DNA from: Microbacterium oryzae | GTDB taxonomy: Bacteria; Actinomycetota; Actinomycetes; Actinomycetales; Microbacteriaceae | Length of the DNA stretch: 64,000 nt | Direction: 5' to 3' | Assembly: GCF_009735645.1 (NCBI RefSeq) | Contig: NZ_CP032550.1 | Span: 1,612,001-1,676,000, forward strand | In this document: positions 3,084 to 63,908 of the stretch, piece after piece | Numbering within the stretch: the first letter of the stretch is position 1 | How the letters are laid out: each line of letters opens with the position of its first letter | The notes under the pieces: model-generated | What the model saw: only the letters and a program-made list of their open reading frames with translations | Told to the model about the DNA's origin: nothing | The model's database searches: none | Position numbers and translations under genes: made by a program

Positions 3084-3115
3084 CTCCAGGCGGGGCGGGC
3101 ACTTCCCCCTTTTCC

Positions 3116-3177
3116 GGTTCGCCAGTGCGGGCGACACGGTTTCGGCGTCGGAAGCGTGTCGCCCGCACTGGCGAACC
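3116..3177. repeat. Palindromic repeat family A, copy 2
   Basis: Same 23-bp arms as copy 1 (3116-3138 and 3155-3177), loop of 16 nt with a diverged sequence. It lies 32 nt after the stop codon of the thiamine-diphosphate enzyme, a position expected of a terminator or 3-prime stabilising hairpin. Confidence 0.9.
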
Positions 3178-3319
3178 GGTCCGACCCACGACATCCGCAC
3201 CCTGTCACCTCCTGCACAGGCCGCGCGCATGCGCTGCCTCCCGCGGAAAGACGGAAGTCGCATCCGCGCGTCTGTGGAGGACAACTCGCCGGCTGGCGAC
3301 CGACCCACAGGCTCGTCGT

Positions 3320-4306
3320 GTGCGCACCTTCTACCCGCTGCCGACCGCGCTCGGCCCCGCCTTCTCCGTCCCCGACGCCGTGGCTGCCGGCGTCTCCCGG
3401 CGCCGGCTCCTCGCGCCCGATCTGCTTCGCCCGTTCCGCGGCGCCCGCACCGTTCGTGACGTCGTGCTCGTGCCCGACCCGGTCCCCGTCGCCGGTCGCG
3501 ATCCCTCGTCCGCCGAGCAGGAGCAGGTCGACGCGCTTCGACGTGTCCACGCCTACGCACCCGTCATGCCGTCGCACGCGTTCTTCGTCGGGCCGACGGC
3601 GGCGTTGCTGTTCGGCGCGCCGCTTCCGCAGGGCCTGCACGCCCAGTTGCACGTCGGCGTGATCTACCCGCAGACGCCGCCGCGCCGCGCGGGCATCCGC
3701 GGCAGCCAGATCATGCCGCACCTCGTCACGACCGCCGACGCCAAGGGCTTCCATGTCGCGGATGCGGCCTCCACGTGGGCCTCGCTCGCGCCGTTCCTCG
3801 ATCTGTCAGATCTCGTCGCCGTCGGAGACCACCTCGTGCAGCAGCCTCGATACCCCGGAAGCGGGGACGCGAAGAGGGCACCCCATGCCACGCTCGATGA
3901 ACTCGCCGCCGCGGCCGGCGCCGGTCGGCGGATCGGCATCGGGAAGCTGCAGCAGGCGCTCCCTCTGCTCAGCACCCGAGCGGCATCACGGCCGGAGACG
4001 CACCTGCGCCTCCTCCTTCGCGAGGCGGGGTTGCCCGAGCCCGAGGTGAATGAAGACATCTTCGATGATGACGGCACCTTCGTCGCGTGTGGCGACCTCG
4101 TCTACCGCGAGCGACGCGTCGTCGTGGAGTACGAGGGGGACGGTCACCGTGAGCCCGCGCAGTTCCAGCGCGACATCGAGCGCTTCCAGCGCCTGACCGA
4201 GATCGGATGGCTCGCTGTGCGTCTGACTTCGGCTCACGTGTACGTCGACCCGGGAGAAGCGGTCCGTCGCGTGCGCAGCGCCCTCAGCCGCTCCCAGCCT
4301 CGTTGA
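3320..4306 (+). CDS. DUF559-type protein with endonuclease-like C-terminal domain
   Basis: 328 residues from a GTG start. The C-terminal part (about 215-325) has the DUF559 / very-short-patch-repair-like fold signature: ETHLRLLLREAGLPEPEVN, a strand with FVACGDLVYRERRVVVEYEGDGHR, then FQRDIERFQRLTEIGW. The D-x-E residues fit a PD-(D/E)XK nuclease core. The N-terminal part (about 1-200) resembles the abortive-infection / transcription-regulator-like region often attached to this domain in Actinobacteria. Such proteins are common single genes in Microbacteriaceae and their role is unproven; defence or DNA repair are possibilities. It is bounded by repeats at 3116-3177 and 4358-4419. Confidence 0.75.
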   Translation: MRTFYPLPTALGPAFSVPDAVAAGVSRRRLLAPDLLRPFRGARTVRDVVLVPDPVPVAGRDPSSAEQEQVDALRRVHAYAPVMPSHAFFVGPTAALLFGAPLPQGLHAQLHVGVIYPQTPPRRAGIRGSQIMPHLVTTADAKGFHVADAASTWASLAPFLDLSDLVAVGDHLVQQPRYPGSGDAKRAPHATLDELAAAAGAGRRIGIGKLQQALPLLSTRAASRPETHLRLLLREAGLPEPEVNEDIFDDDGTFVACGDLVYRERRVVVEYEGDGHREPAQFQRDIERFQRLTEIGWLAVRLTSAHVYVDPGEAVRRVRSALSRSQPR

Positions 4307-4357
4307 GCGCAGCCTCTGCGATCGTCTCGCCCGCCCAGGACAACGGCGCCGGTTGCC

Positions 4358-4419
4358 GATTCGCCAGTGCGGGCGGCACGGAAACGGGCGCAAAAGCGTG
4401 TCGCCCGCACTGGCGAACC
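4358..4419. repeat. Palindromic repeat family A, copy 3
   Basis: Left arm 4358-4380 differs at a few bases (gattcgccagtgcgggcggc plus acg); right arm 4397-4419 is identical to the other copies. It lies about 50 nt after the DUF559 stop codon, between that gene and the convergent glycosyltransferase ending at 4492. Confidence 0.87.
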
Positions 4420-4491
4420 GGAATGGGGGATCGATCTGCGACACCGACCACCGAACGGCCCAGCCCGAGCCCCCGCCCGCGCACCCGGTCC

Positions 4492-5547
4492 CTAGATCTC
4501 CGCGGCGCCGTCGCGACCGAACTCGCCGCGGATGAACGCCGCGGCGACCTCCGCGTCGAACACCTCGCGCTCGTTCAGCACGCGCTCGCGGTACGGGGCC
4601 TGCGCGGCGAGCGCAGCGTCCGGGTCGGCCATCACGCCCAGCACCGCGTCGTGCGCGGCCTCCACCACGTCGGGCAGCACCGCGACCTTGTGCGCGAACG
4701 GCAGCGGAACATCCACGTCGTTCGCCGCGGCACCGCGGCGCGCGACCAGCACGACCGAGCCCATCGCGGCGGCCTCACGCGGCATCCGGTCCTTGCCGGG
4801 ATGCGTGCCGAGATCGAGGTAGATGAGCGACGTCCGCAGCGCCTCGGCCACCTCCTCGCCGGTCATCCCGCGCAGCGGCAGCAGCTCGAGCTCCGGGTAC
4901 CGGCGCGAGAACTCACGCATGATCGCCGCCGACTTCGCCGGGTTGTACGTGATCCGCGGCACGCGCCCCTCAACCGAGACCGCCGACGCCGCCGCACCCG
5001 CACCATCCGACCCCACCCCCACCGGCGTGTAGTCCGACAGGATGGTCCCCACTCGCCCCAGGTGCGCGAAGATGTGGTTCCACGCGTAGTGCGACTGCAC
5101 GAGGTGCCCGGCCCGCTGCAGCACGGCGTCCTCCCCCGTGCGCCAGCCGCGCCACATGCGCTTGAGGTGCCGCAGCCACAGGAGCGGCGGGCGCGACATC
5201 CGCGTCTGCTCGAGCGGCAGCGTCGACCGCTGCGCGCGCTCGATGACGAACCGCGGCGCGTAGTCGATCGACAGCCACCACACGAAGGGCGCGGCGTGCT
5301 CGAGCGGGCGCAGCAGCAGCGCCTGCGTCTCGGGCACGACGACGGAGTTCCCCGCAGCGTCCACAACGGCCGGCGCCTCCGGAGCGTCGTAGTGCGCGTA
5401 CCGCTCGGCGCGCGGCGTCGATTCCGTGCCCGGAACCGGCACGAGGAACGCCTCCTGCCCCTGCCGACGCAGCGAGTCCACCAGCTGATGCAGCGCCTCC
5501 GGGCCGCCCGTCGCGAGCCCGCGCGGGTAGTAGACGTACGTGGTCAT
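4492..5547 (-). CDS. Glycosyltransferase, GT-B-like, surface polysaccharide
   Basis: 351 residues. The protein begins MTTYVYYPRGLATGGPEALHQL, a GT-B-like N-terminal strand with a glycine-rich loop, and carries ITYNPAKSA then DLGTHPGKDRMPREAAAMG in the nucleotide-sugar half, as in capsule and O-antigen glycosyltransferases. The start codon overlaps the stop of the upstream polymerase gene by 4 nt (ATGA at 5544-5547), so the two are translationally coupled and belong to one operon. Sugar and linkage unknown. Confidence 0.7.
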   Translation of the reverse strand: MTTYVYYPRGLATGGPEALHQLVDSLRRQGQEAFLVPVPGTESTPRAERYAHYDAPEAPAVVDAAGNSVVVPETQALLLRPLEHAAPFVWWLSIDYAPRFVIERAQRSTLPLEQTRMSRPPLLWLRHLKRMWRGWRTGEDAVLQRAGHLVQSHYAWNHIFAHLGRVGTILSDYTPVGVGSDGAGAAASAVSVEGRVPRITYNPAKSAAIMREFSRRYPELELLPLRGMTGEEVAEALRTSLIYLDLGTHPGKDRMPREAAAMGSVVLVARRGAAANDVDVPLPFAHKVAVLPDVVEAAHDAVLGVMADPDAALAAQAPYRERVLNEREVFDAEVAAAFIRGEFGRDGAAEI

Positions 5548-6971
5548 GCGACCTGGCGCGCGGCAGTCGACGGCATGCGACCATCCTGCCGCGTTCCCAG
5601 CCGACGCGAGAACGCGACCGCCACGATCGCGGCGAAGAACGGCACGAGGTGGTTGTCGCCGAGGAACGTCGTGGTGTCGAGCATCCCGTGCACGAGCACC
5701 CACGCGACGCCGACGAACACGACGAGCAGCTCGAGCGATCCGCGCGAGAAGAGGCGGTCGTGGCGGCGCTGGCGGATCCGCACGACGACCGCCGCGATCG
5801 GCAGCAGCGACAGCGCGATCGTCAGCAGCAGCGAGACGAGACCGGCATCCGCCCACGCCTGCGCGAAGAGGTTGTGCGGCGGGAAGAGCTGCAGACCGCG
5901 ACCGGGGAAGGCCGTGCGCCACTCCTCCTCGATCGCGAGGCGCCAGTTGCCGAACCCGAGCCCCGTGAACCAGTGCTCAGGGAAGCGGTGGAAGACCACG
6001 CCCCACAGCCGACGACGTTCATCGAGGGTGCGGATGGTCTCGTCCAGCAGATGCGGTCGGATGGCCGAGACGAGCGTGATCGCGCCGACGGCCGCCGCCG
6101 CACCCACCACCGCCACGCCGATCGCGAGGAGCGGCTTGCGCACGGCGACGAGGGCGAAGGCCCCGAGCACCGGCAGCAGCACGATCGCCGCGAGGGGCGT
6201 CTTGGACCCGGTGCCGAGCGAGGCGTCGAAGGCGATGAGCCCGACGGCGAGGAAGATCCAGAGCTGCGCCCGTGACGGACGCTGCAGCGCCGCCCAGATG
6301 TACAGGCATCCGACCACCGCGAGGAACAGCGAGGCGGTGTTGGCGTTCAGGAACACGCCGCCGGCCTTGAAGATGTCGTTGACGTTCTCGGTGCTGCCGC
6401 GCGCGATCATCTCGACGCCGGGCTCGGTGAGGAACCGTGCGAGCGGCGACGTGAGGTACGCGCGCTCGAGGTCCGGGAAGATCCGGAACAGCGTCACGAG
6501 CCACGCTTCGATGAGCACGAACGGCGAGGCGATCGCGAGGGCGTCGAGCAGTCCACGCGGTGATTCGCGGATGGTCTCGCGCGCGATGAGCGACGTCGCG
6601 ATCAGTCCCAGCGTGAGCAGGACCCCGTATGCCGCCGACCCGAGCTTGTCGGCCCAGAGCACCGAGATCATCTGCCAGACGGCGAGCGCGATGAGGAGCC
6701 CGATCCACAGCGGCGGCTTCGCACGACCCCAGCGCCAGGCGGCGGCGGGCAGCAGGGCGGCGGTGGCGAGGAGCCCGAACGACGTGAAGCCGAACGGACC
6801 GAACAGCTGCACGATGCCGAGCACGAAGGCCGCGCCGAGCAGCACCCGGGCCTGCAGCCGGAACGACAGCCACACGATGGCGGCGGCTCCGACGGCGACC
6901 ACCGCGAGGGTGAGGATGATCTCGACCGGGGTCCGCGTTCCGAGGAAGGACGGCTCGGCCAGGAAGTTCAC
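5544..6971 (-). CDS. O-antigen ligase / Wzy-type polymerase family membrane protein
   Basis: 475 residues with about 11-12 hydrophobic segments and one large extracytoplasmic loop (about 280-380) containing NWRLAIEEEWR and PPHNLFAQAWADAG; the PPHN...Q pattern is the signature of the Wzy_C / O-antigen ligase family. Such proteins join lipid-linked glycan repeat units outside the membrane. I choose GTG 6971 because GGAG lies 6 nt upstream, giving an N-terminus MNFLAEPSFLGTRTPVEI; longer reading to 6983 or 7028 is possible. It overlaps the downstream glycosyltransferase by 4 nt. Confidence 0.82.
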   Translation of the reverse strand: MNFLAEPSFLGTRTPVEIILTLAVVAVGAAAIVWLSFRLQARVLLGAAFVLGIVQLFGPFGFTSFGLLATAALLPAAAWRWGRAKPPLWIGLLIALAVWQMISVLWADKLGSAAYGVLLTLGLIATSLIARETIRESPRGLLDALAIASPFVLIEAWLVTLFRIFPDLERAYLTSPLARFLTEPGVEMIARGSTENVNDIFKAGGVFLNANTASLFLAVVGCLYIWAALQRPSRAQLWIFLAVGLIAFDASLGTGSKTPLAAIVLLPVLGAFALVAVRKPLLAIGVAVVGAAAAVGAITLVSAIRPHLLDETIRTLDERRRLWGVVFHRFPEHWFTGLGFGNWRLAIEEEWRTAFPGRGLQLFPPHNLFAQAWADAGLVSLLLTIALSLLPIAAVVVRIRQRRHDRLFSRGSLELLVVFVGVAWVLVHGMLDTTTFLGDNHLVPFFAAIVAVAFSRRLGTRQDGRMPSTAARQVA

Positions 6972-7069
6972 GATGTGCTCCACACGTTGACGGCTTCGGG
7001 GGCGCCGGAATGCGACGTGTGCCCCCACTTCCAGGCTACCCGCCGGTCAGACCGGTCTCCTACCGCCGT

Positions 7070-7133
7070 CCGGGTTCCCGACAACGGCCCACCGCGTTTC
7101 GTCTCGGTCGCTGCGCTCCCTCGCTCAACGTCC
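7070..7133. repeat. Palindromic repeat family B, half copy
   Basis: gcgtttcgtctcggtcgctg followed by cgctccctcgctcaacgtcc matches one arm of the repeats at 1-88 and 31280-31381, together with part of the central segment (cccgacaacggcccaccgcg). The opposite arm is missing. The element covers the stop codon of the glycosyltransferase ending at 7125: the TGA of that gene is the tga of its gttgagcga arm. Confidence 0.75.
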
Positions 7134-8093
7134 GGACGGAGCCAACTCCCCCAGCACCTCGTCGATCCGCGCAGCGGTCGCATCCCAGTCGTACCCCGCC
7201 GCCGGCGCCTTGACGCGACGCGGCGACTCCAGGGCCAAGCGGATGGCCGTGGCCCACTCATCGACGTCGGTCGCGCTCTCGAGGGCGGTGCCGCGATCCC
7301 CCACCGTCTCGGCGACCGCCGCGCACCCGCTCCAGAACAGCACCGGGGTGCCGGTCATCACGCTCTCGAGCGCCGGGAGGCCGAATCCCTCGAGCGTCGA
7401 CGGCATGACGGTCGCCGCCGCGCCGCGGTACTGGCGCGCGAGCTCGTCGTCGTCGATCCCGGCCAGCAGCTCGACGCGAGGGGCGATGCCGCGGGCCATG
7501 GCCATCCGCTGGGCTTCTTCGTGTTCACGCGCGGGCAGGAGCATCCGCAGCCGCGCCTCGGGAACCCGGGCGACGGCATCCACGACGACCGCGACGTTCT
7601 TGTGGGCGCGGAGGTTCCCGACGTACATGAGGTACGGGTCGTTCGCCGGTGCGGGCGGCACGTCCGCGCGGAACGCGTCCGAGCACCCGATGCCGGCGTT
7701 CACCACGCGCACGGAGGCGTCACCGAGCCACTCCTCGACGAGGGCCTTCGACGTCTCCGACACCGTGAGCACCGCTCCCGTCCGCCGTACGACCGGGCGC
7801 ACGACGAGCCGGTAGTACGCGAGGTACTTCGCCCGACCGGGCCATGGCGTCTGCAGCTGGATGAGATCGTGCATCGTCAGCAGCTCGCGCGGCGCCCGGA
7901 CGAACGCGTTGTACCCCGGCGAGTAGATGAGCCGATCCGTCGGAACAGGCCGCAGCGCGTCGGCCGGCGCGAGGTGATCGCCGTCGAGCCCGAGCGGAAC
8001 CCATGGCGTCTTCAGCCGCGGCAGCACCTCCCGCGAGTAGCGCTGGATGCCGGCGATGCCATCCCACCGGGTGTCGATCGCGATCTGAGGCAT
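7125..8093 (-). CDS. GT-B glycosyltransferase (GT1/GT4 type)
   Basis: 322 residues. MPQIAIDTRWDGIAGIQRYSR is the N-terminal strand and glycine loop, YVGNLRAHKNV the start of the nucleotide-sugar-binding half, and STLEGFGLPALESVMTGTPV the E-x7-E retaining GT4 motif. It probably transfers a hexose or deoxyhexose onto the same glycan as the two genes downstream on this strand. No Shine-Dalgarno site is seen; CACAAT lies 6 nt before the ATG, which fits a leaderless start. Its last codons are set by the repeat at 7070-7133, so the C-terminus may have been altered by that element. Confidence 0.82.
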   Translation of the reverse strand: MPQIAIDTRWDGIAGIQRYSREVLPRLKTPWVPLGLDGDHLAPADALRPVPTDRLIYSPGYNAFVRAPRELLTMHDLIQLQTPWPGRAKYLAYYRLVVRPVVRRTGAVLTVSETSKALVEEWLGDASVRVVNAGIGCSDAFRADVPPAPANDPYLMYVGNLRAHKNVAVVVDAVARVPEARLRMLLPAREHEEAQRMAMARGIAPRVELLAGIDDDELARQYRGAAATVMPSTLEGFGLPALESVMTGTPVLFWSGCAAVAETVGDRGTALESATDVDEWATAIRLALESPRRVKAPAAGYDWDATAARIDEVLGELAPSGR

Positions 8094-54296: not shown

Positions 54297-55154
54297 CTAC
54301 GCGAGGAGCGCTACCGCCGCGTAGGCGGCGAGCGCGAGAAGGCCCGCGCCCGTGACGATCTGCACCCGTCGGTCCACGACGCACATCGCCGAGAGGAATC
54401 CGGGCATCGTGCCCCCCGCTCGAGTGTGGATGATCGCCGCGAGGCTGGGCAGGCAGCGGCCGAGGGCGACGACGCCGAACAGGGCCGCGCCGAGCACCGG
54501 GTTACCCTGCAGCGCGAGTCCGAGCACGAGCAGGTAGTACGCGCTCGAGCGGATGAAGATGAGGAAGCCGGGGCCGATGATCGCGCCGAAGAGAAACGAC
54601 ACGCGTCGCGGCGCCATGGTGCGACGCAGGTGGCGAGGAAGCTGTCGGCGTCGCATCGGCGTCCACATCCTGATGACGCCGAGCTCGTGAAGCCCGTACA
54701 GCGCCGCGAGCACGGCCCACACGCCGAGCGCCCACGCGAGCCCGACTGTGGAGCCGATGAGCGAGCCGACCGCGCCGATGAGCGCGCCGGTGGGCAGCGC
54801 AGTGAGCAGTGAGCCCGCCGCGTGCCACCCGAGCCGCCGTGCCGGCGTGGAAGCGCCCCGACGACCCGGCTGCTTCGGCGCCGCCACGACGGCGGCGACC
54901 GACATCCCGCAGGTCGACCAGTTGGCGGCGAGCGCCGTGAGCAGCCCCGCGCCGATCACGGCCGTCGTCAGGGGAGCATCTCCGGCGGGAGCGGCCAATC
55001 CGGCGGCGGCTCCGACGAGGAGCGCGCCGGTCGTGAGCCCCGCGCGAACACGCGAGGATGAGGTCTGCCCGACCTCCGGGCGCAGCTGCGGAGCGTCTGC
55101 CTCGAGGGGCGGATGCGCGAGATGCGTGCGGATGGGGGCGTCGATCGCTGTCAT
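54297..55154 (-). CDS. MauF-like integral membrane protein
   Basis: 285 residues with about 6-7 membrane helices. After a hydrophilic N-terminus (1-35) come helices with a cysteine in LAANWSTCGMSVAAVVAAPK (about 90), a conserved-looking loop IIGPGFLIFIRSSAYYLLV and a final cysteine pair region (GRCLPSL, LSAMCVVDRR). It is the last gene of the amine-dehydrogenase cluster; MauF of Paracoccus is a membrane protein of similar length needed for export or maturation of the dehydrogenase. The assignment rests on context, size and helices, not on a motif I can prove. GGAGG precedes ATG 55154. Confidence 0.55.
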   Translation of the reverse strand: MTAIDAPIRTHLAHPPLEADAPQLRPEVGQTSSSRVRAGLTTGALLVGAAAGLAAPAGDAPLTTAVIGAGLLTALAANWSTCGMSVAAVVAAPKQPGRRGASTPARRLGWHAAGSLLTALPTGALIGAVGSLIGSTVGLAWALGVWAVLAALYGLHELGVIRMWTPMRRRQLPRHLRRTMAPRRVSFLFGAIIGPGFLIFIRSSAYYLLVLGLALQGNPVLGAALFGVVALGRCLPSLAAIIHTRAGGTMPGFLSAMCVVDRRVQIVTGAGLLALAAYAAVALLA

Positions 55155-55207
55155 GGTTCCTCCAATGCTTCTGACCTCGGCGAGGTCTTGTGTGCGGATG
55201 GTCTCGC

Positions 55208-55573
55208 TCAGCCTTCGACCGTGACGGTGCCGACCATCATCGGGTGGGGCGTGCAGTGATAGGTGAAGGTGCCGGCTTCGTCGAAGGTGAAGGTGTAGCT
55301 GCCCTCGGTCATGAGCTCGCTCTGCAGCTCGCCTTCGAGAGCTCCCTCTCCGGTGACGTCGTGCGGCAGGCCGCCGTCGTCGAACACCCACTCCACGGTG
55401 TCGCCGGGCTGGATGGTGACGTCGGCCGGCTGGTACGACATGTCGGTCACGGTGATCGTCACGTCGGGCTCGCCGTCGGCTGCCGCCGCGGTGGTCTCGC
55501 CGGGGCTGCACGCGGCGAGCGCGACTGAGGCGCCGAGAAGGGCGAGTACGGCGACGCTCTTGAGGGTCTTCAT
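55208..55573 (-). CDS. mauC: Amicyanin-like cupredoxin lipoprotein
   Basis: 121 residues. Lipobox LAAC (Cys22) anchors it to the outer face of the membrane. The mature part is a small blue-copper fold with ligands His71 (GLPHDV), Cys107, His110 and Met113 in YHCTPHPMM. The block GTFTYHCTPHPMM with C-x2-H-x2-M is almost that of amicyanin (Paracoccus MauC, ligands His53, Cys92, His95, Met98), which takes electrons from methylamine dehydrogenase. Encoded two genes downstream of MauB, next to a multicopper oxidase, so it should carry electrons from the TTQ enzyme onward. AGGA precedes ATG 55573. Confidence 0.85.
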   Translation of the reverse strand: MKTLKSVAVLALLGASVALAACSPGETTAAAADGEPDVTITVTDMSYQPADVTIQPGDTVEWVFDDGGLPHDVTGEGALEGELQSELMTEGSYTFTFDEAGTFTYHCTPHPMMVGTVTVEG

Positions 55574-55584
55574 GGTCGGTCCTC

Positions 55585-57189
55585 TCAACGGATGTACCGC
55601 AGGTTCGCGGTCATCCCGGCTTCGAAGTGATAGGCGTTGTGGCAGTGGAACATCCACTCGCCGGGGTTGTCGGCGTCGAACTCGATCGCGAGCTCGCTGC
55701 CGGGCAGGGAGATGACGGTGTCGCGCCGGAGCCCGCCGTAGGACGGGACGGCGAACGTGTGCCCGTGCGTATGCATCGGGTGCCACATGCTGGTCGTGTT
55801 GGCCATCGTGATGCGCACCCGCTCTCCCTGCTTCATCACAAGCCGCCCCACGTCATCCCCGGACATGCCCCAGACGTAGCGGTCGCCGGCCTGGATGAGC
55901 TCGATGCGGTAGTCGCGGTCGGGTTCGCGGGTATCGAGCACCACCGAGTCGGCGGGCCGCATCTCGCTTTCGAGCAGAACCCGGCCGTCGAGTTCGGCGA
56001 TCGTCGCCGGTAGCTCGCGCAGGGGCCGGGCGTCGGGAGTGCGAAGCACGGTCGCGACCGACTCCGACCTTCCCTCCACACGCGCGACGACGGGCCACGC
56101 ACCCGAGCGCACCGTGACGAGCACATCGGCGCGCTGGGCCATCCCGAGGATGATCGCGTCGGCGGTCTGCGGCTGCACGTCGAAGCCGTCGAGTGCGACC
56201 ACGGTGAGCTCGTGACCGGCGACGGCGAACCGGTACGGTGTCTCGGCGGCCGCGTTGACGATGCGCAGCCGCAGCCGCTGCCCCACGGCGGCTTCGACGA
56301 CGGCCGGGTCCGCCGTGGGGCGGCCGTTGATGAGGTGCATCGGATACGACACGTGCTGCGTCATGCCACCGAGAGGGACCGAGTCCCCGTGCCCACCGGC
56401 GACCATAGCCGCGGCCGTGGCGGAGGGCGTCGGCGCGGCGGCGGGTGTCGCAGCGGGGGTCTCCGCTCCGTGCCCGTGGTGACCGCCCGCGAGGGCGGGA
56501 TTCAGCGCCGCGAGCACCTCATCGGGAGTCGCTCCGAGGCCATCCACCCAGTCGTCGATCACGAGGACCGCGTCCGCGTCAGCACCCGTCGTGTCGTCGG
56601 GGTCCTCGACGACGAGCGCGCCGAAGAGTCCGCGGTCCGCCTGGAGTCCGCTGTGGGAGTGGTACCAGTGCGTGCCCGGATCGGGCGCGACGAAGGAGTA
56701 GTCGAACGTGCCGTCGACACCGATCGCCTCCTGCGTGACGGGAGCGGCGCCATCCATGTCGTTGCGGATGCGGACGCCGTGCCAGTGCACGGTCGTCGCC
56801 TCGGGCAGGGCGTTGGCCACACGCGCCTGGACGCGGTCGCCCTTGCCGAGCCGCAGGGTGGGTGCGACCGCCTCGCCGCCGTACGTCCAGGTGCGCACGA
56901 CGCGTCCGGCGAGATCGACGTCGGCCACCCCGGCCTGCAGCGCGAAGCTCGCCTCGCGCCCGCTCCAGGCTCGTGCCGCCTCGGCCGCCGCGACCTCGGG
57001 GTCGGATGGCCGGATGTAGTCGAGCGCGACGGCCGACGGCGAGGCCGCGGTCGGCGAGCCTGCCGCGCAACCCGCGGAGAGACCCGCTGCGCCGAGCCCC
57101 ACGGCGCCCGCCCCGTAGGCGCTGAAGCGGAGGAAGGCGCGCCGGTCCAGGAGCCGCGCCCTCCCGCGGCGGGTCTCGTCCCCGGTCAC
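55585..57189 (-). CDS. Multicopper oxidase (three-domain, Tat lipoprotein)
   Basis: 534 residues. Tat-type signal RRAFLRFSAYGAG followed by lipobox LSAGC (Cys41). Trinuclear copper motifs: HWHG (His135, His137), THWYHSHSG (His174, 177, 179); C-terminal HPMHTHGHTF and HCHNAYHFEAGM (type-1 Cys-His). Between the second and third domains is a His/Met-rich stretch (GGHHGHGAE, VAGGHGD) as in copper-handling oxidases. It reduces O2 to water with electrons from a copper donor. Start GTG 57189 overlaps the MauB stop (GTGA). In known mau clusters no such gene is present; here it may be the terminal oxidase for amicyanin or take part in TTQ formation. Confidence 0.9.
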   Translation of the reverse strand: MTGDETRRGRARLLDRRAFLRFSAYGAGAVGLGAAGLSAGCAAGSPTAASPSAVALDYIRPSDPEVAAAEAARAWSGREASFALQAGVADVDLAGRVVRTWTYGGEAVAPTLRLGKGDRVQARVANALPEATTVHWHGVRIRNDMDGAAPVTQEAIGVDGTFDYSFVAPDPGTHWYHSHSGLQADRGLFGALVVEDPDDTTGADADAVLVIDDWVDGLGATPDEVLAALNPALAGGHHGHGAETPAATPAAAPTPSATAAAMVAGGHGDSVPLGGMTQHVSYPMHLINGRPTADPAVVEAAVGQRLRLRIVNAAAETPYRFAVAGHELTVVALDGFDVQPQTADAIILGMAQRADVLVTVRSGAWPVVARVEGRSESVATVLRTPDARPLRELPATIAELDGRVLLESEMRPADSVVLDTREPDRDYRIELIQAGDRYVWGMSGDDVGRLVMKQGERVRITMANTTSMWHPMHTHGHTFAVPSYGGLRRDTVISLPGSELAIEFDADNPGEWMFHCHNAYHFEAGMTANLRYIR

Positions 57190-58505
57190 TCCAGCACCTG
57201 CGGTGTCAGCATGTGGCCCGCGTCGCCGACGAAGTCCGGCACCTCGACCCGGGAGACCTCGTCGCCGCTGGCCGCGTCGTATCCGATGAGCGTCAGGGGC
57301 TCGTCCTCGCCCGATCCCGGTCCCTGCACATAGAGCGTCGCGCCATCCACCGAGTAGGCGAGCCCGCCGATCGACCTCAGCTGCAGAGCTTCCGCGTCGA
57401 GGTCGGCGATCGGGGCGAGATCCCTCGGGTCGGACATGATGAGGCGCACCTCGTCGCCGCCGTTCGCGGAGTGCGGGTGGATCTCGCTGTCGGTGTATGT
57501 CACCGCGAGACTCGTCGCGGTGTTGTTGATGACGGATGAGGCGAAGCGGCCGCTGTCCTGGCCCGCGTTCCCGATCGGCGTCACGGGCTCCGTCGGAAGA
57601 CCCTCGGAGAAGTCGAAGACGAACACGTCGCCGTTGGCGGAGAGCAGGAGCGCCTTGTCGGCGTCCATCGCATAGGTGACGTGCCGGTTGCTCACGAAGT
57701 CGTCCGGCAGCACCTCCGCACGCTCCACTTCCTCGATGGACCCGTCGTTCTGGATGGAGAGGTGCACGAGCTCGCGCGTCTCCTCGCAGACGGAGTAGAC
57801 GTCGTGGCCGTTCACCCAGGTGAAGGGCCCGCAGCCAAGCATCTCCATGGCGCCCGTCTCGACGCCCTCCTCGAGGTCGAAGACGCGGGGCCCGTACAGC
57901 CCGTCGTCCCAGAACACGAAGTACTGCTTGTCGTCCGTGACCGCGCTCGATCCCCACCGCGAGTGCGTGCGCACATAGTCGGGCATGACGATCTCGTCCG
58001 GCTCAAGCAGCGTTCCCGAGTAGGTGCTGATCGTGAAGTCGGCGGCGCCGCGCGATCCGCGCGGCCTCCAGACCTCGGCGGCGAGGACGGCCGGGTCGTC
58101 GGGCGATTCCCCCACGAAGGGGTGCACGACCGGATCCCAGATGCCCGGGCCGACGGTGAAGTTCGCCGTGACCTCGCCGGTCGCCGGATCGACCGCCTGC
58201 GCGCTGAGCTCGAGCCCGCCGCCGGCCATGATCACGACCTGGTCCGAGCCGATGGGGTCGATCTCGCCGACGTGCAGCTGCTGCGGGATCTCGTCCTCCG
58301 ACGGGATCTCCTCGTCGGAGTCGCCGAGCGTCGTGGTCTCGTCGGTCTCGAACCACTCCTGCTCGGGGTGATCCACGACACCGGCGGCGACTCCCGTGGG
58401 CTCCGGCTCCGGGGACTCGGCGGCATTCGTCGCGGTGCAGCCGGCGAGCGCGACGCCCGCGACGAGAGTGAACGAGACGGCGCCGAGGGCGCGCGCGGCG
58501 CTCAT
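57186..58505 (-). CDS. mauB: Methylamine/amine dehydrogenase heavy chain (MauB-like) lipoprotein
   Basis: 439 residues; Paracoccus MauB is of similar size. Lipobox LAGC (Cys23) replaces the usual periplasmic signal, placing the enzyme on the outer face of the Gram-positive membrane. The mature part is a seven-bladed-propeller type sequence (repeated YVQGPG, VYSVCEETRELVHLS, AEVLPDDF) with HVGEIDP near the N-terminus. It forms the scaffold of the alpha2-beta2 enzyme with the light chain, whose gene overlaps its start by 4 nt. Methylamine is one possible substrate; aromatic amines (AauB type) are another. Confidence 0.86.
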   Translation of the reverse strand: MSAARALGAVSFTLVAGVALAGCTATNAAESPEPEPTGVAAGVVDHPEQEWFETDETTTLGDSDEEIPSEDEIPQQLHVGEIDPIGSDQVVIMAGGGLELSAQAVDPATGEVTANFTVGPGIWDPVVHPFVGESPDDPAVLAAEVWRPRGSRGAADFTISTYSGTLLEPDEIVMPDYVRTHSRWGSSAVTDDKQYFVFWDDGLYGPRVFDLEEGVETGAMEMLGCGPFTWVNGHDVYSVCEETRELVHLSIQNDGSIEEVERAEVLPDDFVSNRHVTYAMDADKALLLSANGDVFVFDFSEGLPTEPVTPIGNAGQDSGRFASSVINNTATSLAVTYTDSEIHPHSANGGDEVRLIMSDPRDLAPIADLDAEALQLRSIGGLAYSVDGATLYVQGPGSGEDEPLTLIGYDAASGDEVSRVEVPDFVGDAGHMLTPQVLE

Positions 58506-59179
58506 CGGGATCCCGCCCCGACCTTGGGCCGGGCGGCGGGGGCCGCCTGGCAGTCCGTGCCGATGATCGGAGCCATGGTGCAGGTATACGACTGCGACTC
58601 GTCCGAGACGCACCAGATGATCTCCTGGTCGTACGAGCCGGCCACGGGGTTGTACATCTGCGCCATCACATCGGGCTCGCCGCAGAAGGTGTTCGAGCAG
58701 CCCGGGGCGCCGCAGCAGTCGTAGTACGCGATGAGGTAGGTCTTGCCGTCGTCGGGGTTCGTGCAGCAGCCGACCCAGAACTCGGCGCCGGGCTTCGATC
58801 CCGGCGAGCAGGTCGTCATCCCGCCACCCGCGCATGATGTGCACGGAACTCCGTCCATGTTGCACCAGCGCCAGTACTCGCACGTCGAGGAGTCGCCGGT
58901 CTCGTCGAACGCCGGGTACAGCGGGCTGTCCTCCGCAGTGCGGGCGGCGGGAGCAGCCTCGGCTCCGAACGCCGCGCGGCTGACCGGCAGCGAGCTGATC
59001 GCCGCGACGCCGGCGACGCCGATGCCCCAGCGCCCGAGCTGACTGAGCATCGAGCGTCGAGAGGTCTTCTCCGACATGCTGCGTCCGAGCCGGCTGAACA
59101 GGGTTCCGCCGCGTCCGGCCATCCACTCGGCCTGCTCCCGCATGGTCTCGTCGTCCACGGGATATCTGTTCTCTGTCAT
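58502..59179 (-). CDS. mauA: Amine dehydrogenase light chain with TTQ cofactor residues (MauA)
   Basis: 225 residues. Tat signal SRRSML...AAFG (about 40-72). All landmarks of the Paracoccus light chain are present: Trp135 in FWVGCC (Trp57) and Trp189 in EIIWCV (Trp108), which together form tryptophan tryptophylquinone; Asp109 in NMDGVPC (Asp32), Asp154 in AYYDCCG (Asp76), Thr201 in YTCTMAPIIG (Thr122); and a dozen cysteines for the usual disulfides. It oxidises a primary amine to aldehyde and ammonia outside the cell. GGAAGGG precedes ATG 59179. Methylamine dehydrogenase is best known from Gram-negative methylotrophs, so the actinobacterial setting is unusual. Confidence 0.93.
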   Translation of the reverse strand: MTENRYPVDDETMREQAEWMAGRGGTLFSRLGRSMSEKTSRRSMLSQLGRWGIGVAGVAAISSLPVSRAAFGAEAAPAARTAEDSPLYPAFDETGDSSTCEYWRWCNMDGVPCTSCAGGGMTTCSPGSKPGAEFWVGCCTNPDDGKTYLIAYYDCCGAPGCSNTFCGEPDVMAQMYNPVAGSYDQEIIWCVSDESQSYTCTMAPIIGTDCQAAPAARPKVGAGSR

Positions 59180-59205
59180 GTGCTGCCCTTCCTTTCCGTG
59201 TCGGG

Positions 59206-59826
59206 TCAGTGCGTGTGCTGGATCTCGCGCTGCTTCGACGCCTCATGGAGGTGCTGCAGCGAGGGGGTGCCGGTCTCCAGCGCGTTGAGGAGGCTCTCGA
59301 CGTGCGCCATCTGGTTGCACAGGCCCTTGGCCCGGATCTTCCCGTGCTCGTCGAGCACGACGCCGTAGGGCGTGGTGCCCACCTGATAGGCGATGCCGAC
59401 CTCGCGGGCGTCCACGTACGCGAATTCGTCGGTGATGCCGGCTCCGGCGAGGAACTCGGCGTGCTCCTCGGCGGTGCCGTCGGAGATCATCACGACCTCG
59501 AGGTCCTTGCGCTCCGCCTTGGCGAGCGCCTTGATTCCTGGCAGCAGGCTCTTGCACGTCGAGCACTTCGGCCCGGTGAACATGAGGAGCTGAGCGCGGT
59601 CGCGGTGACCGCCGACGCTCGCCGGGCGACCCCGGTGATCGGCCAGTCCCTGGAAGGAGGGGCCCGTCTCGGCGATCTTCGGGCCGCTGTCCATCATCCG
59701 GGCGCCGAGAGGGCCGAGGCGCACCTGGACGCGGCCGATCTCGCGGGCGAGGGCGAGGTTCATGACGAAGAGGAAGGCGACGGCCAGGATGAGCACGATC
59801 GTCGCGATGAGCAGGAATGTGATCAC
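59206..59826 (-). CDS. mauD: MauD-like thioredoxin-fold disulfide protein
   Basis: 206 residues. One N-terminal membrane helix (FLLIATIVLILAVAFLFVM) then a thioredoxin-like domain with the active pair Cys88-x-x-Cys91 in GPKCSTCKS and cis-proline loop GTTPYG. MauD is needed to make the many disulfides of the light chain. GTG 59826 has AAAGGA 5 nt upstream. It lies directly before mauA. Confidence 0.88.
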   Translation of the reverse strand: MITFLLIATIVLILAVAFLFVMNLALAREIGRVQVRLGPLGARMMDSGPKIAETGPSFQGLADHRGRPASVGGHRDRAQLLMFTGPKCSTCKSLLPGIKALAKAERKDLEVVMISDGTAEEHAEFLAGAGITDEFAYVDAREVGIAYQVGTTPYGVVLDEHGKIRAKGLCNQMAHVESLLNALETGTPSLQHLHEASKQREIQHTH

Positions 59827-59844
59827 GGGGGTCCTTTCGGAACG

Positions 59845-60432
59845 TCAGGGGTGGAGGGCGGCGGCCGCGACGAGCTCGTCGCGTGCACGGGCGAGATGGG
59901 TGTCGACGGGTCGGCGCCCGGGATGGATGACCTTCGCGGCGAAGACCGCGGCCCAGATGGCCGAGAGCACGAGCGCGGCGAGACTCCACCCCAGGAGGTA
60001 CTCCACGACCGAGGTGGCGCCGAACCCGTGGGCAAGCAGCACCGCTCCGGCACCGCCGGCGGCGAGCGCGAGCGCGCGGACGACGTGCGGCCAGCCGATG
60101 CGCGGCGCCTGCCCCGTCTCAGCGAAGGCGAAGCAGCCGCAATCGAGGTCGCGGCGTCCACGCAGCAGGTTGATGCCGAGAGCGACAGCGAACACGGTGA
60201 AGAGCGCTGCGGCGAGCAGCCCGGTCACGCGGGGCTCGACGCCGAGAATGAGGAGTGCGCCCAGCAGGACCTCGCTCCACGGGAGGCCGCGCGCGACCGC
60301 CCGCTCGAGCACAGGAGGCAGCAGCCGATACCCCTGCACCGCCGCCAGCATTCCGCGCCGGTCCCGAAGCTTGGGCACGCCGGCGATGAGCAGCAGGCCG
60401 CCGAGCAGGGACGTGAGAGCGATGAGGATCAC
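59845..60432 (-). CDS. mauE: MauE-like membrane protein
   Basis: 195 residues with four to five helices (ALTSLLGGLLLIAGVPKL at the N-terminus) and a cysteine pair Cys98/Cys100 in LDCGCFAF. MauE works with MauD in disulfide formation of the amine dehydrogenase; the same fold occurs in DoxX/DoxD-type proteins. GTG 60432 has AAAGGA upstream. First gene of the mau block, 217 nt after the IclR gene. Confidence 0.87.
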   Translation of the reverse strand: MILIALTSLLGGLLLIAGVPKLRDRRGMLAAVQGYRLLPPVLERAVARGLPWSEVLLGALLILGVEPRVTGLLAAALFTVFAVALGINLLRGRRDLDCGCFAFAETGQAPRIGWPHVVRALALAAGGAGAVLLAHGFGATSVVEYLLGWSLAALVLSAIWAAVFAAKVIHPGRRPVDTHLARARDELVAAAALHP

Positions 60433-60592
60433 GGGTCGAGTCCTTTCGGGTCGATCGGTCGATGACCTCAGCGTGGCGAGCGATGGTTTCGGCCATACGC
60501 GCAGGCCGTGAAGATCTCCGCACTCACCGTGAGACAGCTGCTCACGCGCCGGCATCACCGCGACCGCGCCGACGCACGGCCGGTTCGGCCGA

Positions 60593-60623
60593 AACACGAC
60601 TCGGAACTGGTCTTTTCCGTGTT
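60593..60623. promoter_or_regulatory. Candidate operator upstream of mauE
   Basis: aacacg-act-cggaa, 8 nt, ttccg-tgtt (60593-60623) is a long inverted repeat (AACACG/CGTGTT outer arms, CGGAA/TTCCG inner arms) in the 217-nt gap between iclR and mauE. IclR-type regulators bind such sites; it is the natural target for the regulator encoded next to it. Confidence 0.5.
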
Positions 60624-60649
60624 ACGGGCGGATGAAGCGTCGGCAGACA

Positions 60650-61354
60650 CTACGCGTCGAGAACCGCGCCGATCGCGGCCGCACCCTCGCGCAGCAGCAC
60701 GAGGTGCCGTGCGGCAGTGCTCACGCGGCCGAGACCGGTGGCGAGAGCGAGCGCGCCGATCTCTCGCCCGTTCGTCATGACGGGCACGGCGATGCAGCCG
60801 ACGGCGGGAAGGACCGAGCCGAACTGCTCAGCATGGCCGCGCACGCTCACCGCCGCCACGACCTGCTCGCGCACGGGAGCCGAGGGCACCTCCGGCCACC
60901 CCCCGGGCCCGTCGTGTGAGGCCAGCCACAGGTGGCCCGCCGCCGAGCTCTCCGGGTTTCGGAACAGCGCGTCACTGTCCGCGATCGGAATGGACGCGTC
61001 CTCCGCGACCAACTCCATCCCGTCATCGGTGAAGGCGAACAGATGCACCGCCTCCCCCGTCTCCCGTCGCAGATCGTCGACGATCGGCTCCACGGGCGAT
61101 CGCCGATGCGCTTCGACGATCGAGGCGAGCTCCAGCACGCGGCGACCGAGCAGGAAGCCCGTGAGATCCGGACGCCGGACGAGGTAGCCCTCGCGAGTGA
61201 GCGTGCCGACGGCGCGGTAGACGCTCGCTCGAGGCGCGCCCACCCGCTTCACGAGCTCCGACGCGGTCACCCCATCGCGGCAGCGCGCCACATGCTCGAG
61301 GATGGCCAGCGCCAGTTCGAGCCCCTTCTCGGGGATCGAAGGCTCCGGCGTCAC
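60650..61354 (-). CDS. IclR-family transcriptional regulator
   Basis: 234 residues. Winged helix-turn-helix about 8-65 (LAILEHVARCRDGVTASELV; PRASVYRAVGTLTREGYLVR) and a C-terminal effector domain (about 90-234) with VAVSVRGHAEQFGSVLPAVG and GCIAVPVMTNGREIGALAL. GTG 61354 overlaps the stop of the upstream permease gene (GTGA), so the regulator is made with the permease. Likely senses the amine or aldehyde and controls the mau operon. Confidence 0.87.
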   Translation of the reverse strand: MTPEPSIPEKGLELALAILEHVARCRDGVTASELVKRVGAPRASVYRAVGTLTREGYLVRRPDLTGFLLGRRVLELASIVEAHRRSPVEPIVDDLRRETGEAVHLFAFTDDGMELVAEDASIPIADSDALFRNPESSAAGHLWLASHDGPGGWPEVPSAPVREQVVAAVSVRGHAEQFGSVLPAVGCIAVPVMTNGREIGALALATGLGRVSTAARHLVLLREGAAAIGAVLDA

Positions 61355-62745
61355 CGGGCGCCGCCCGCGATCGCGTCGGCGGACTCCACCCAGTCGTACA
61401 CCCCAACCCGCGCCCGGAGCCGCGGCGTGCGAGCGACGAGGACGACGGCGGAGACGACGACGATCAGACAGACAGACAGACCCACGGCGACCGCCACCGG
61501 CTCTCGCGCCCACATCGCGCACGCCCACGCCACCAGCAGCGCCGCCTGCGCGGCTCCCGTCGATGACGCGAGCACGACCATCCTCGGGGTCGCCTCGCCG
61601 ATGCGCACCAGGAACGCGACGGATGCCGCGCACAGCAGCACGTACGCCGCGAGGAACCCGAGCGGTCCGAGGATGTTCGCTCCGGATTCGAACTCCGTCT
61701 CGACCGACGCGAGCACCGCGGCGCAGGGGATCGTCACGACCGGCACGACGAGCACGAGCGAGGCCGACCACGGCACGCCGCGCCGGCTCACCCTGCCGAG
61801 CGCAGCGGGAAGCACCCCCTCGCGGCTCATGGCGAGGACCAGCCGGGCCGACGCCGTCGTCATGGCCAGCGCGCAGGCGAGGAAGGAGACCCCGATGATG
61901 GCCTGCAGGACGGCACGCGTCGCCGGGGCGTCGGCGAGCGAACCCGGAGAGCGCAGAGCGAGATGACCGACGCTTCCGGCGAGGAGGACGGCGGCGATCG
62001 CCACGATGCTGATCATCACCCCGCGCGGCACCGTGGCGTGCGGACGGCGAGACTCGGCTCCGAGCGCGGCACCGCTCTCGAAGCCGACGAATCCCAGCAC
62101 CACAGACACGACCGCCGAGGCGGCCTCCGGCTCCCCTAGCCAGTGCGGCTGCACGACACCGGATGGCGACTGAGCGACGGCGATCGCGGTCACCGCGAGC
62201 ACCGTGGCGACCGCGCCCACCTCGAAGACCAGCAGCATGCGCGTCGTCATGCGCAGGCCCCCGATGCTGAGCGCCGCGATGCCGCATCCGGTCAGCACGA
62301 TGATCACGACCGCGGCGACATCCGGTCGATCGGATGCGACGAGGTCGGCCAGCCGCCGACCGCCGATGAGCAGCGTCGAGGAGCCGACCGCGAGGTAGCC
62401 GATCGCGAGGAGCGCGCCCGCGGCGATCCCGGCGCGCGCGCCGAGGCCGCGCGCGACGAAGGTGTAGACCGCGCCGGTGCTCGCGAGCCGTCTGGTGAAG
62501 ACGCCGAGCACCACCCCGACCGCGAGCATGAGGGGAACGGCGACGGCGAGCTCGACGAGGCCGTACGGCCCGTCTCCCATGGCGCCGGTGTGAAACGCGA
62601 GCACCCCGGCGGGCGCCGCCGCTGCGACGGACTGCGCGACGACGTCGATCGTCCTCGCCCGCGTGCGCCGCAACGCGCGGAACGGCGAGTCCTCGAGTCC
62701 GGCCAGAGGTTCTGCCTGCCGGATCGCCTTGCTGAGAGCTCTCAT
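61351..62745 (-). CDS. APC-superfamily amino acid/amine permease
   Basis: 464 residues with 12 predicted helices. The first reads ARTIDVVAQSVAAAAPAGVL, the helix-I block of APC transporters; GFVGFESGAALGAESRRPHA is the conserved helix-VI/loop block. Likely imports an amino acid or amine. As the dehydrogenase acts outside the cell, the permease may bring in the amine for nitrogen use or for regulator induction. AGGAGG precedes ATG 62745. First gene of the nine-gene minus-strand set. Confidence 0.85.
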   Translation of the reverse strand: MRALSKAIRQAEPLAGLEDSPFRALRRTRARTIDVVAQSVAAAAPAGVLAFHTGAMGDGPYGLVELAVAVPLMLAVGVVLGVFTRRLASTGAVYTFVARGLGARAGIAAGALLAIGYLAVGSSTLLIGGRRLADLVASDRPDVAAVVIIVLTGCGIAALSIGGLRMTTRMLLVFEVGAVATVLAVTAIAVAQSPSGVVQPHWLGEPEAASAVVSVVLGFVGFESGAALGAESRRPHATVPRGVMISIVAIAAVLLAGSVGHLALRSPGSLADAPATRAVLQAIIGVSFLACALAMTTASARLVLAMSREGVLPAALGRVSRRGVPWSASLVLVVPVVTIPCAAVLASVETEFESGANILGPLGFLAAYVLLCAASVAFLVRIGEATPRMVVLASSTGAAQAALLVAWACAMWAREPVAVAVGLSVCLIVVVSAVVLVARTPRLRARVGVYDWVESADAIAGGAR

Positions 62746-63514: not shown

Positions 63515-63859
63515 TCAGGCCGCCTTCGCGAGGGAAGCCGTGCGCGGCGTGGCCTGCGCGTCGATGTCGGAGAGGGCGGCCGGCGACAGGTCGAGCCCGT
63601 GGTTCGAGTTCGCCGCCTCGACAAGACGCACGAGCACCTCGCGATTCAGCGGAACCTGGTCCACCTCGTCGAGAACGATGCGGAAGGGGATGGACGAGTG
63701 CACCCAGACGGTCTCACGCGCGCCGCCGGGGTGCTGCCACGAGAGGGAGAAGGACTCGCCGCGGCGCAGCTTGGTGAGAACCACCGATTGCACGTGGGCG
63801 AGGAGGCGATCCTCGATCTCGATCGCCTGGTCACTCATGCCGTAGAACATCTTGCCCAC
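63515..63859 (-). CDS. DUF7882-type small protein
   Basis: 114 residues. GTG 63859 (MGKMFYGMSDQAIEIEDRLL) has GGAGGA 4 nt upstream and aligns exactly with the start of the paralogue at 29782-30126; both have the LTKLRRGESFSLSWQHPGG-type core and HSSIPFR. Unknown role. Divergent from the gene starting at 63972. Confidence 0.75.
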   Translation of the reverse strand: MGKMFYGMSDQAIEIEDRLLAHVQSVVLTKLRRGESFSLSWQHPGGARETVWVHSSIPFRIVLDEVDQVPLNREVLVRLVEAANSNHGLDLSPAALSDIDAQATPRTASLAKAA

Positions 63860-63908
63860 GCGTTCCTCCTCGATTTTGGCCGACACCTGCCGACGTCTCG
63901 AACTTTAC

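Follow-up and report, generated by a model that had tools for sequence, protein, structure and literature searches.

How does a Gram-positive bacterium build the tryptophan tryptophylquinone (TTQ) cofactor of an amine dehydrogenase, and where do its electrons go, when the genes for the enzyme have neither mauG nor a cytochrome c gene beside them? The question is posed by a 64,000-nucleotide stretch of Microbacterium oryzae contig NZ_CP032550.1 (GCF_009735645.1, positions 1,612,001 to 1,676,000), hereafter the window, in which nine minus-strand genes within 54297-62745 include those for a light chain (MauA), a heavy chain (MauB), a multicopper oxidase (MCO) and an amicyanin-like cupredoxin. The answer that we favor, with slightly more confidence than doubt, is a membrane-tethered, all-copper route from amine through TTQ, cupredoxin and MCO to O2, combined with TTQ formation that is independent of MauG. 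The original prediction, made from the letters of the window, had described an unbroken minus-strand set for an APC permease, IclR, MauE, MauD, MauA, MauB, an MCO, a cupredoxin and MauF in a Gram-positive host, with no CxxCH haem motif in the encoded proteins. All nine genes were confirmed, none of the nine proteins has the motif, and the host genome belongs to the same family as Planctomonas deserti, which we take to be the Microbacteriaceae.

The cluster is not a chance assembly, since relatives of MauA and MauB and, where contigs allow, of the other members occur at 39 further actinobacterial loci. These loci (L001 to L039) come from a scan at one genome per species that gave 287 confirmed relatives, the best 80 of which were kept: 39 actinobacterial and 41 others, mostly proteobacterial (L040 to L080). 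With the window they make up 40 actinobacterial loci, from Rhodococcus, Prescottella, Nocardia, Microbacterium, Planctomonas, Actinacidiphila, Kineococcus, Corynebacterium, Dietzia and a Nitriliruptorales metagenome-assembled genome (MAG). MauA and MauB were found at all 40, MauD at 39, MauE at 38, and the MCO, cupredoxin and MauF at 37 each. Genes missing from L035, L036 and L037 fall at the ends of short contigs (the L036 genome has an MCO on another contig, 55%), and the true gaps are those of Planctomonas (L012) and the MAG (L039). At the MAG locus, no MCO or cupredoxin was found in the 2.7 kb past mauB, and the best MCO match in that genome, of 54 bits, is on another contig. At the same locus (2474-7597), mauA and mauB are separated by mauF, an arrangement also seen in Kineococcus L033, and beyond a TetR-like frame lies one that by eye resembles a flavoprotein monooxygenase, with no tie to the mau genes shown. 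Among 398 sampled genomes of the host's family, a strong light-chain match occurred in two, the window's and that of Planctomonas; five matched at E 0.001, and three of these, scoring about 20 bits and in two cases containing stops, were discounted as noise. The light chain is also found in Microbacterium and Agromyces database records. The cluster is sporadic and has probably spread horizontally.

The light chain retains the features expected of a TTQ enzyme. As the original prediction held, MauA has both TTQ tryptophans: W135 and W189 align on those of solved light chains and of the light chains of the 41 other loci (the gaps of the L057 row arise from a poor fragment), and they are present in 40/40 and 39/40 actinobacterial rows, respectively. 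MauA also keeps many cysteines and the catalytic Asp/Tyr residues D109, D154 and Y198. D154 is found in every actinobacterial row and D109 in 39 of the 40, the exception being L039, in which glycine replaces this first active-site aspartate. W189, Y198 and C200 are absent only from L037, whose mauA frame is broken. Against TIGR02659, the methylamine dehydrogenase (MADH) equivalog, MauA scored 123.8 bits and did not reach the cut-off of 196.85. With its two tryptophans, catalytic aspartates, cysteines and PF02975 match, the protein has the sequence characters of a TTQ amine dehydrogenase light chain, and the mature protein would be expected to contain TTQ. Two further cysteines set the actinobacterial proteins apart, C138 (40/40 rows versus 0/41 others) and C210 (39/40 versus 0/41), which probably form a seventh disulfide beside the cofactor. 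Database records already label such proteins "methylamine dehydrogenase light chain". MauG is the textbook TTQ maker.

The partner subunit, MauB, had no Pfam or NCBIfam match, the heavy-chain model PF06433 included, and no PDB sequence matched it better than E 0.49; run on a test set of 20 sequences, the profile of the actinobacterial MauB family recovered Paracoccus MauB (25.7 bits). An AlphaFold2 model of MauB (predicted local distance difference test score 79) found only MADH or aromatic/aralkylamine dehydrogenase (AADH) heavy chains among its best 27 PDB fold matches, with E 4.4e-16, template modeling scores of 0.61/0.74 and 16% identity to the MADH heavy chain 2bbk, and on this model MauB is predicted to be a heavy chain with an MADH/AADH-type propeller. 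MauF, like its Paracoccus counterpart, is without a Pfam or NCBIfam match, and a fold search against the PDB found nothing at E 0.001; in the same test set, the actinobacterial MauF family profile matched the MauF proteins of Paracoccus (90 bits) and Methylobacterium (79 bits).

The original prediction had allowed that the MauG role might be supplied from elsewhere in the genome, and this was not borne out. The host genome is a single contig of 3,040,780 bases and 100% complete, and the full-genome check for a MauG-like di-haem protein gave no match to the MauG/cytochrome c peroxidase model PF03150, which recovers the MauG proteins of Paracoccus (153.5 bits) and Methylobacterium (188.5 bits). 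The sole PF13442 cytochrome c protein in the genome is QcrC, the respiratory diheme subunit of the bc1 complex (NF050122, 358 bits), followed by a Rieske-like frame read by eye. A survey of MauA-bearing actinobacteria, which the original prediction had also proposed, gave no PF03150 match in 39 light-chain-bearing genomes, many of them drafts or MAGs and not including four Rhodococcus-group MauA genomes found later (G479, G480, G481 and G485), together with an MCO at 37 of the 40 loci. PF03150 proteins are rare in the phylum (8/396 genomes), so their absence from MauA genomes is no striking co-absence. Nor did phmmer match MauG, MauJ, MauM or MauN at the 40 loci, in a set without a positive control. 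Two other tests were discarded. Scanning DNA for the CxxCH pattern gave 67 matches versus 142 in the reversed control, which is no evidence either way, and TIGR03791 is unsuitable for detecting MauG, that of Paracoccus itself scoring 94.6 bits, under the cut-off of 443.85.

What the cluster encodes instead are copper proteins with predicted membrane attachment. A lipobox pattern is present in MauB at 40/40 loci, in the cupredoxin at 37/37 and in the MCO at 33/37, compared with 0/39 for MauD, 4/38 for MauE and 0/37 for MauF; the remaining four MCOs have SAGC, STAC or SVAC in its place, the window's being SAGC, outside the strict lipobox. The twin-arginine pattern is found in the MCO (37/37) and MauA (40/40) versus 9/40 for MauB and 1/37 for the cupredoxin. 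Lipid anchoring of these proteins is consistent with such patterns. The cupredoxin is closest to amicyanin, both in the PDB (1aac) and among NCBIfam families (TIGR02657, 60.2 bits, under the cut-off of 110.2). A second cupredoxin match occurs at 33 of the 37 cupredoxin-bearing loci, a single one being found in the window, L012, L023 and the cut L035; the loop of the window's protein is CTPHPMM, and the second cupredoxins mostly have CSxHxxM. In two loci of the Rhodococcus erythropolis group (L004 and L005, 19538-20669), a further cupredoxin and MCO pair lies about 4 kb past mauF.

These observations suggest the following model. MauA, exported by the twin-arginine system, and MauB, exported by Sec, would form an extracytoplasmic, TTQ-dependent primary-amine dehydrogenase, with MauD and MauE helping to form the disulfides and lipidated MauB holding the enzyme on the outer side of the membrane. 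The lipidated cupredoxin would take up electrons from TTQ and hand them to the membrane-tethered MCO, which would reduce O2 to water with no cytochrome c in the chain. TTQ would be built independently of MauG: an autocatalytic first hydroxylation may start the process, and candidates for the later oxidations are the MCO and cupredoxin, another oxidant, or O2 itself. Initial tryptophan hydroxylation is thought to be autocatalytic and appears to be copper dependent in LodA, according to the discussion section of PMC7876137. The amine-to-O2 route, with its order of carriers and O2 as the acceptor, is drawn from gene content, gene order and predicted anchoring. With respect to the copper-based alternative raised in the original prediction, the genes present and their predicted anchoring speak for the electron route, and a copper-based maturation of TTQ is a less likely possibility.

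In the 18 of 37 MCO sequences that were aligned, H135, H137, H177, H179, H470, H473, H475, H515, C516, H517, H521 and M526 are invariant, as are the twin arginines and C41. From familiar MCO motifs we take these residues to be the type 1 and trinuclear copper ligands, a pattern that places the protein in the multicopper oxidase superfamily. M526 is the axial type 1 ligand in the same 18 rows; an axial methionine usually goes with a modest type 1 potential, poor for oxidizing tryptophan. The order mauB-MCO-cupredoxin was found by script at 35 of the 40 loci and at 36 with L021, read by its open reading frame ends; the L037 contig ends inside the MCO. In 18 related genomes of the Rhodococcus ruber genus group, an MCO of at least 70% identity was present in 12/12 with intact MauA and 0/5 without MauA, and in the remaining genome (G037) MauA is broken and a fragment of an MCO sits at a contig edge. 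Since these genomes are related, the linkage reflects a co-inherited cluster and not independent events. Paralogues of 42-45% identity (L107 to L111) are found in Rhodococcus-group genomes whether or not these have MauA, and adjoin a P-type ATPase gene in all five fetched loci, a two-component system being confirmed in one, L108. When 23 of the 37 mau MCOs and six other MCOs from the paralogue loci were placed in one tree, the mau MCOs separated from the five near paralogues with supports of 92/86 and 96/87.

Several points weigh against the proposed route. It is gene order that suggests transfer from cupredoxin to MCO; PF13442 was the only cytochrome c model run on the host genome; paralogues next to P-type ATPase genes make a copper-handling role for the MCO possible; and no orthologous MCO was found in the genome of Planctomonas deserti (best match 24 bits), in which electrons must exit otherwise, for example through QcrC or a CuA oxidase. 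The Planctomonas locus (L012, 8716-13299) has mauEDAB, the cupredoxin and mauF, its MauA keeps the key TTQ residues, and its MauB, MauF and cupredoxin are intact. A MauE-D-A-B tree built from 18 loci plus three references puts Planctomonas together with the window and Microbacterium (support 100), nested in lineages that have the MCO; most likely, then, Planctomonas lost the MCO and kept the enzyme. The MCO is not indispensable to the cluster. Retention of the cupredoxin where the MCO was lost fits a cupredoxin that is the first acceptor and an MCO that is a replaceable sink; it would also suit an MCO that acts as a cuprous oxidase or copper supplier, protecting or metallating cupredoxins whose electrons flow to the bc1-aa3 chain (QcrC/CuA). 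We regard this latter role as unlikely. It is in keeping with the P-type ATPase and two-component neighbors of the paralogues and with the best NCBIfam match of the MCO, copper_res_A (TIGR01480, 233.5 bits, the cut-off of 478.95 not being reached), but a domain search of the nine window proteins revealed neither a copper pump nor a known copper sensor, the mauB and mco genes of the window overlap, the MCO follows mauB at the 36 loci and at the cut L037, and the mau MCOs form a branch of their own.

That same separate branch, the co-inheritance of the MCO with MauA, the lack of PF03150 in the host and the 39 other genomes, and the apparent copper dependence of the first hydroxylation in LodA (PMC7876137, discussion) could be read to mean that the MCO replaces MauG as the TTQ maturase, its copper centres and O2, perhaps via the cupredoxin, oxidizing a mono-hydroxylated precursor. 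We think this quite doubtful. The axial M526 is probably ill suited to the task, Planctomonas, which most likely lost the MCO and kept the enzyme, weakens the case for an obligatory maturase, and 40 of 41 AADH-type loci without MauG also have no MCO match, the exception (L077) being weak. The original prediction did not take into account that AADH-type loci do without both MauG and, bar that one weak match, an MCO, so the absence of MauG is by itself no pointer to copper. That the cluster is vestigial or its product TTQ-less is very improbable: its rarity in its own family is what such decay might look like, yet the nine frames are open, their start/stop overlaps are intact, and W135, W189 and D154 are conserved as described above. 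Among these readings, we continue to prefer the all-copper electron route with TTQ formation that needs no MauG.

The genes are listed in Table 1. The core, mauE-mauD-mauA-mauB-mco-cupredoxin-mauF, runs closely packed from 60432 down to 54297; mauA and mauB overlap by 4 bases, as do mauB and mco. The IclR and APC permease genes lie on the same strand upstream of mauE, and each has a counterpart at 32 of the 40 actinobacterial loci; for the permease, some of the remaining eight are cut by contig ends. Upstream of the permease is a DUF7882 protein (63518-63886; PF25355, 103.1 bits), and this stretch has short DNA matches in many genomes of the genus. A search for an empty site with the cluster flanks returned scattered short matches only.

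Table 1. Genes of the mau-type cluster in the window
Product	Position	Strand	Basis of assignment
APC-type amino acid/amine permease	61351-62745	-	PF00324 45.9 bits, PF13520 45.1 bits
IclR-family regulator	60650-61354	-	PF09339 48.1 bits
MauE, membrane protein, DoxX superfamily	59845-60432	-	PF07291 89.4 bits; GTG start
MauD, thioredoxin-like, CSTC	59206-59826	-	TIGR02661 177.6 bits, below cut-off 188.6
MauA, TTQ light chain precursor, twin-arginine signal	58502-59179	-	PF02975 111.5 bits
MauB, heavy chain, predicted lipoprotein	57186-58505	-	Predicted fold and lipobox
MCO, three-domain, twin-arginine signal, likely lipoprotein	55585-57189	-	PF07732/PF00394/PF07731
Amicyanin-like cupredoxin, predicted lipoprotein, loop CTPHPMM	55208-55573	-	PF00127 53.1 bits
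MauF, multi-helix membrane protein	54297-55154	-	Actinobacterial family profile matches Paracoccus MauF

Across 40 loci in nine genera and one MAG, TTQ sites are intact and the genomes searched have no PF03150 protein. Some of the hosts, such as Rhodococcus erythropolis, are tractable, which makes MauG-free TTQ formation a genetic question, and Planctomonas, lacking the MCO, is a natural experiment on the role of that protein. A chain from amine to O2 that is free of cytochrome c, as suggested here, would be relevant to biosensors and to the amine metabolism of Gram-positive bacteria. We give little credence to the bolder proposal that actinobacteria evolved a haem-free way of building TTQ, in which copper, in the MCO and/or the cupredoxin with O2, does the work of MauG as well as carrying electrons; if it were true, synthesis and turnover of the cofactor would share one all-copper chain.

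An actinobacterial TTQ system without MauG was not described in the titles and abstract openings of the open-access literature searched, and its parts have relatives in several known systems. Formation of a protein-derived tryptophylquinone without MauG is known from the cysteine tryptophylquinone enzymes LodA, GoxA and QHNDH, which are matured by flavoproteins (PMC7876137); these differ from the present enzyme in joining Cys to Trp and not two Trp residues, and no flavoprotein monooxygenase is among the nine window proteins. With CopA/CueO-type oxidases the MCO shares three Cu-oxidase domains and HxH-type copper motifs, but it forms its own branch, is linked to mauB and shares 42-45% identity with the closest paralogues seen in the Rhodococcus group.

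Among TTQ clusters, loci lacking MauG are not unique to the actinobacterial type. No MauF, amicyanin or MauG turned up in the 41 stretches fetched for L040 to L080, some of which are cut by contig ends, the MauG search having no positive control. TIGR03791 matched in 25 of these 41 genomes, never over its cut-off; because this model misses true MauG at the cut-off, those 25 may still hold a MauG elsewhere, and its absence is based on the 16 genomes without a match and on phmmer of the fetched stretches. Chistoserdov reportedly described, in 2001, an Alcaligenes aau cluster without mauG. Since loci without MauG are common to the AADH and actinobacterial types, an MCO cannot explain MauG-free TTQ formation in general. 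AADH-type clusters (L086, L101 and similar loci) share the TTQ light chain, MauE and MauD with the actinobacterial type and have no MauG at the locus, but their order is B-E-D-A followed by two cytochromes c, with no MauF or amicyanin, whereas the actinobacterial cluster has MauF and a cupredoxin and no cytochrome c. At 39 of the 41 other loci a frame with CxxCH is found no more than 5 kb from MauA, and none of the 41 has an amicyanin, so copper proteins occupy the place of cytochrome c in the actinobacterial clusters. The canonical mau clusters of Paracoccus denitrificans and Methylobacterium (L084 and L085) have MauF, MauB, MauE, MauD, MauA and an amicyanin-type cupredoxin in common with the actinobacterial type, but are ordered F-B-E-D-A-amicyanin-J-G-NapG-NapH-like instead of E-D-A-B-MCO-cupredoxin-F and include MauG, whereas the actinobacterial type has predicted lipoprotein anchoring and the additional Cys138/Cys210 pair of MauA. 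TTQ clusters can be divided into three kinds: the canonical one, the AADH type, and an actinobacterial one that combines MauF with copper proteins and has neither MauG nor cytochrome c.

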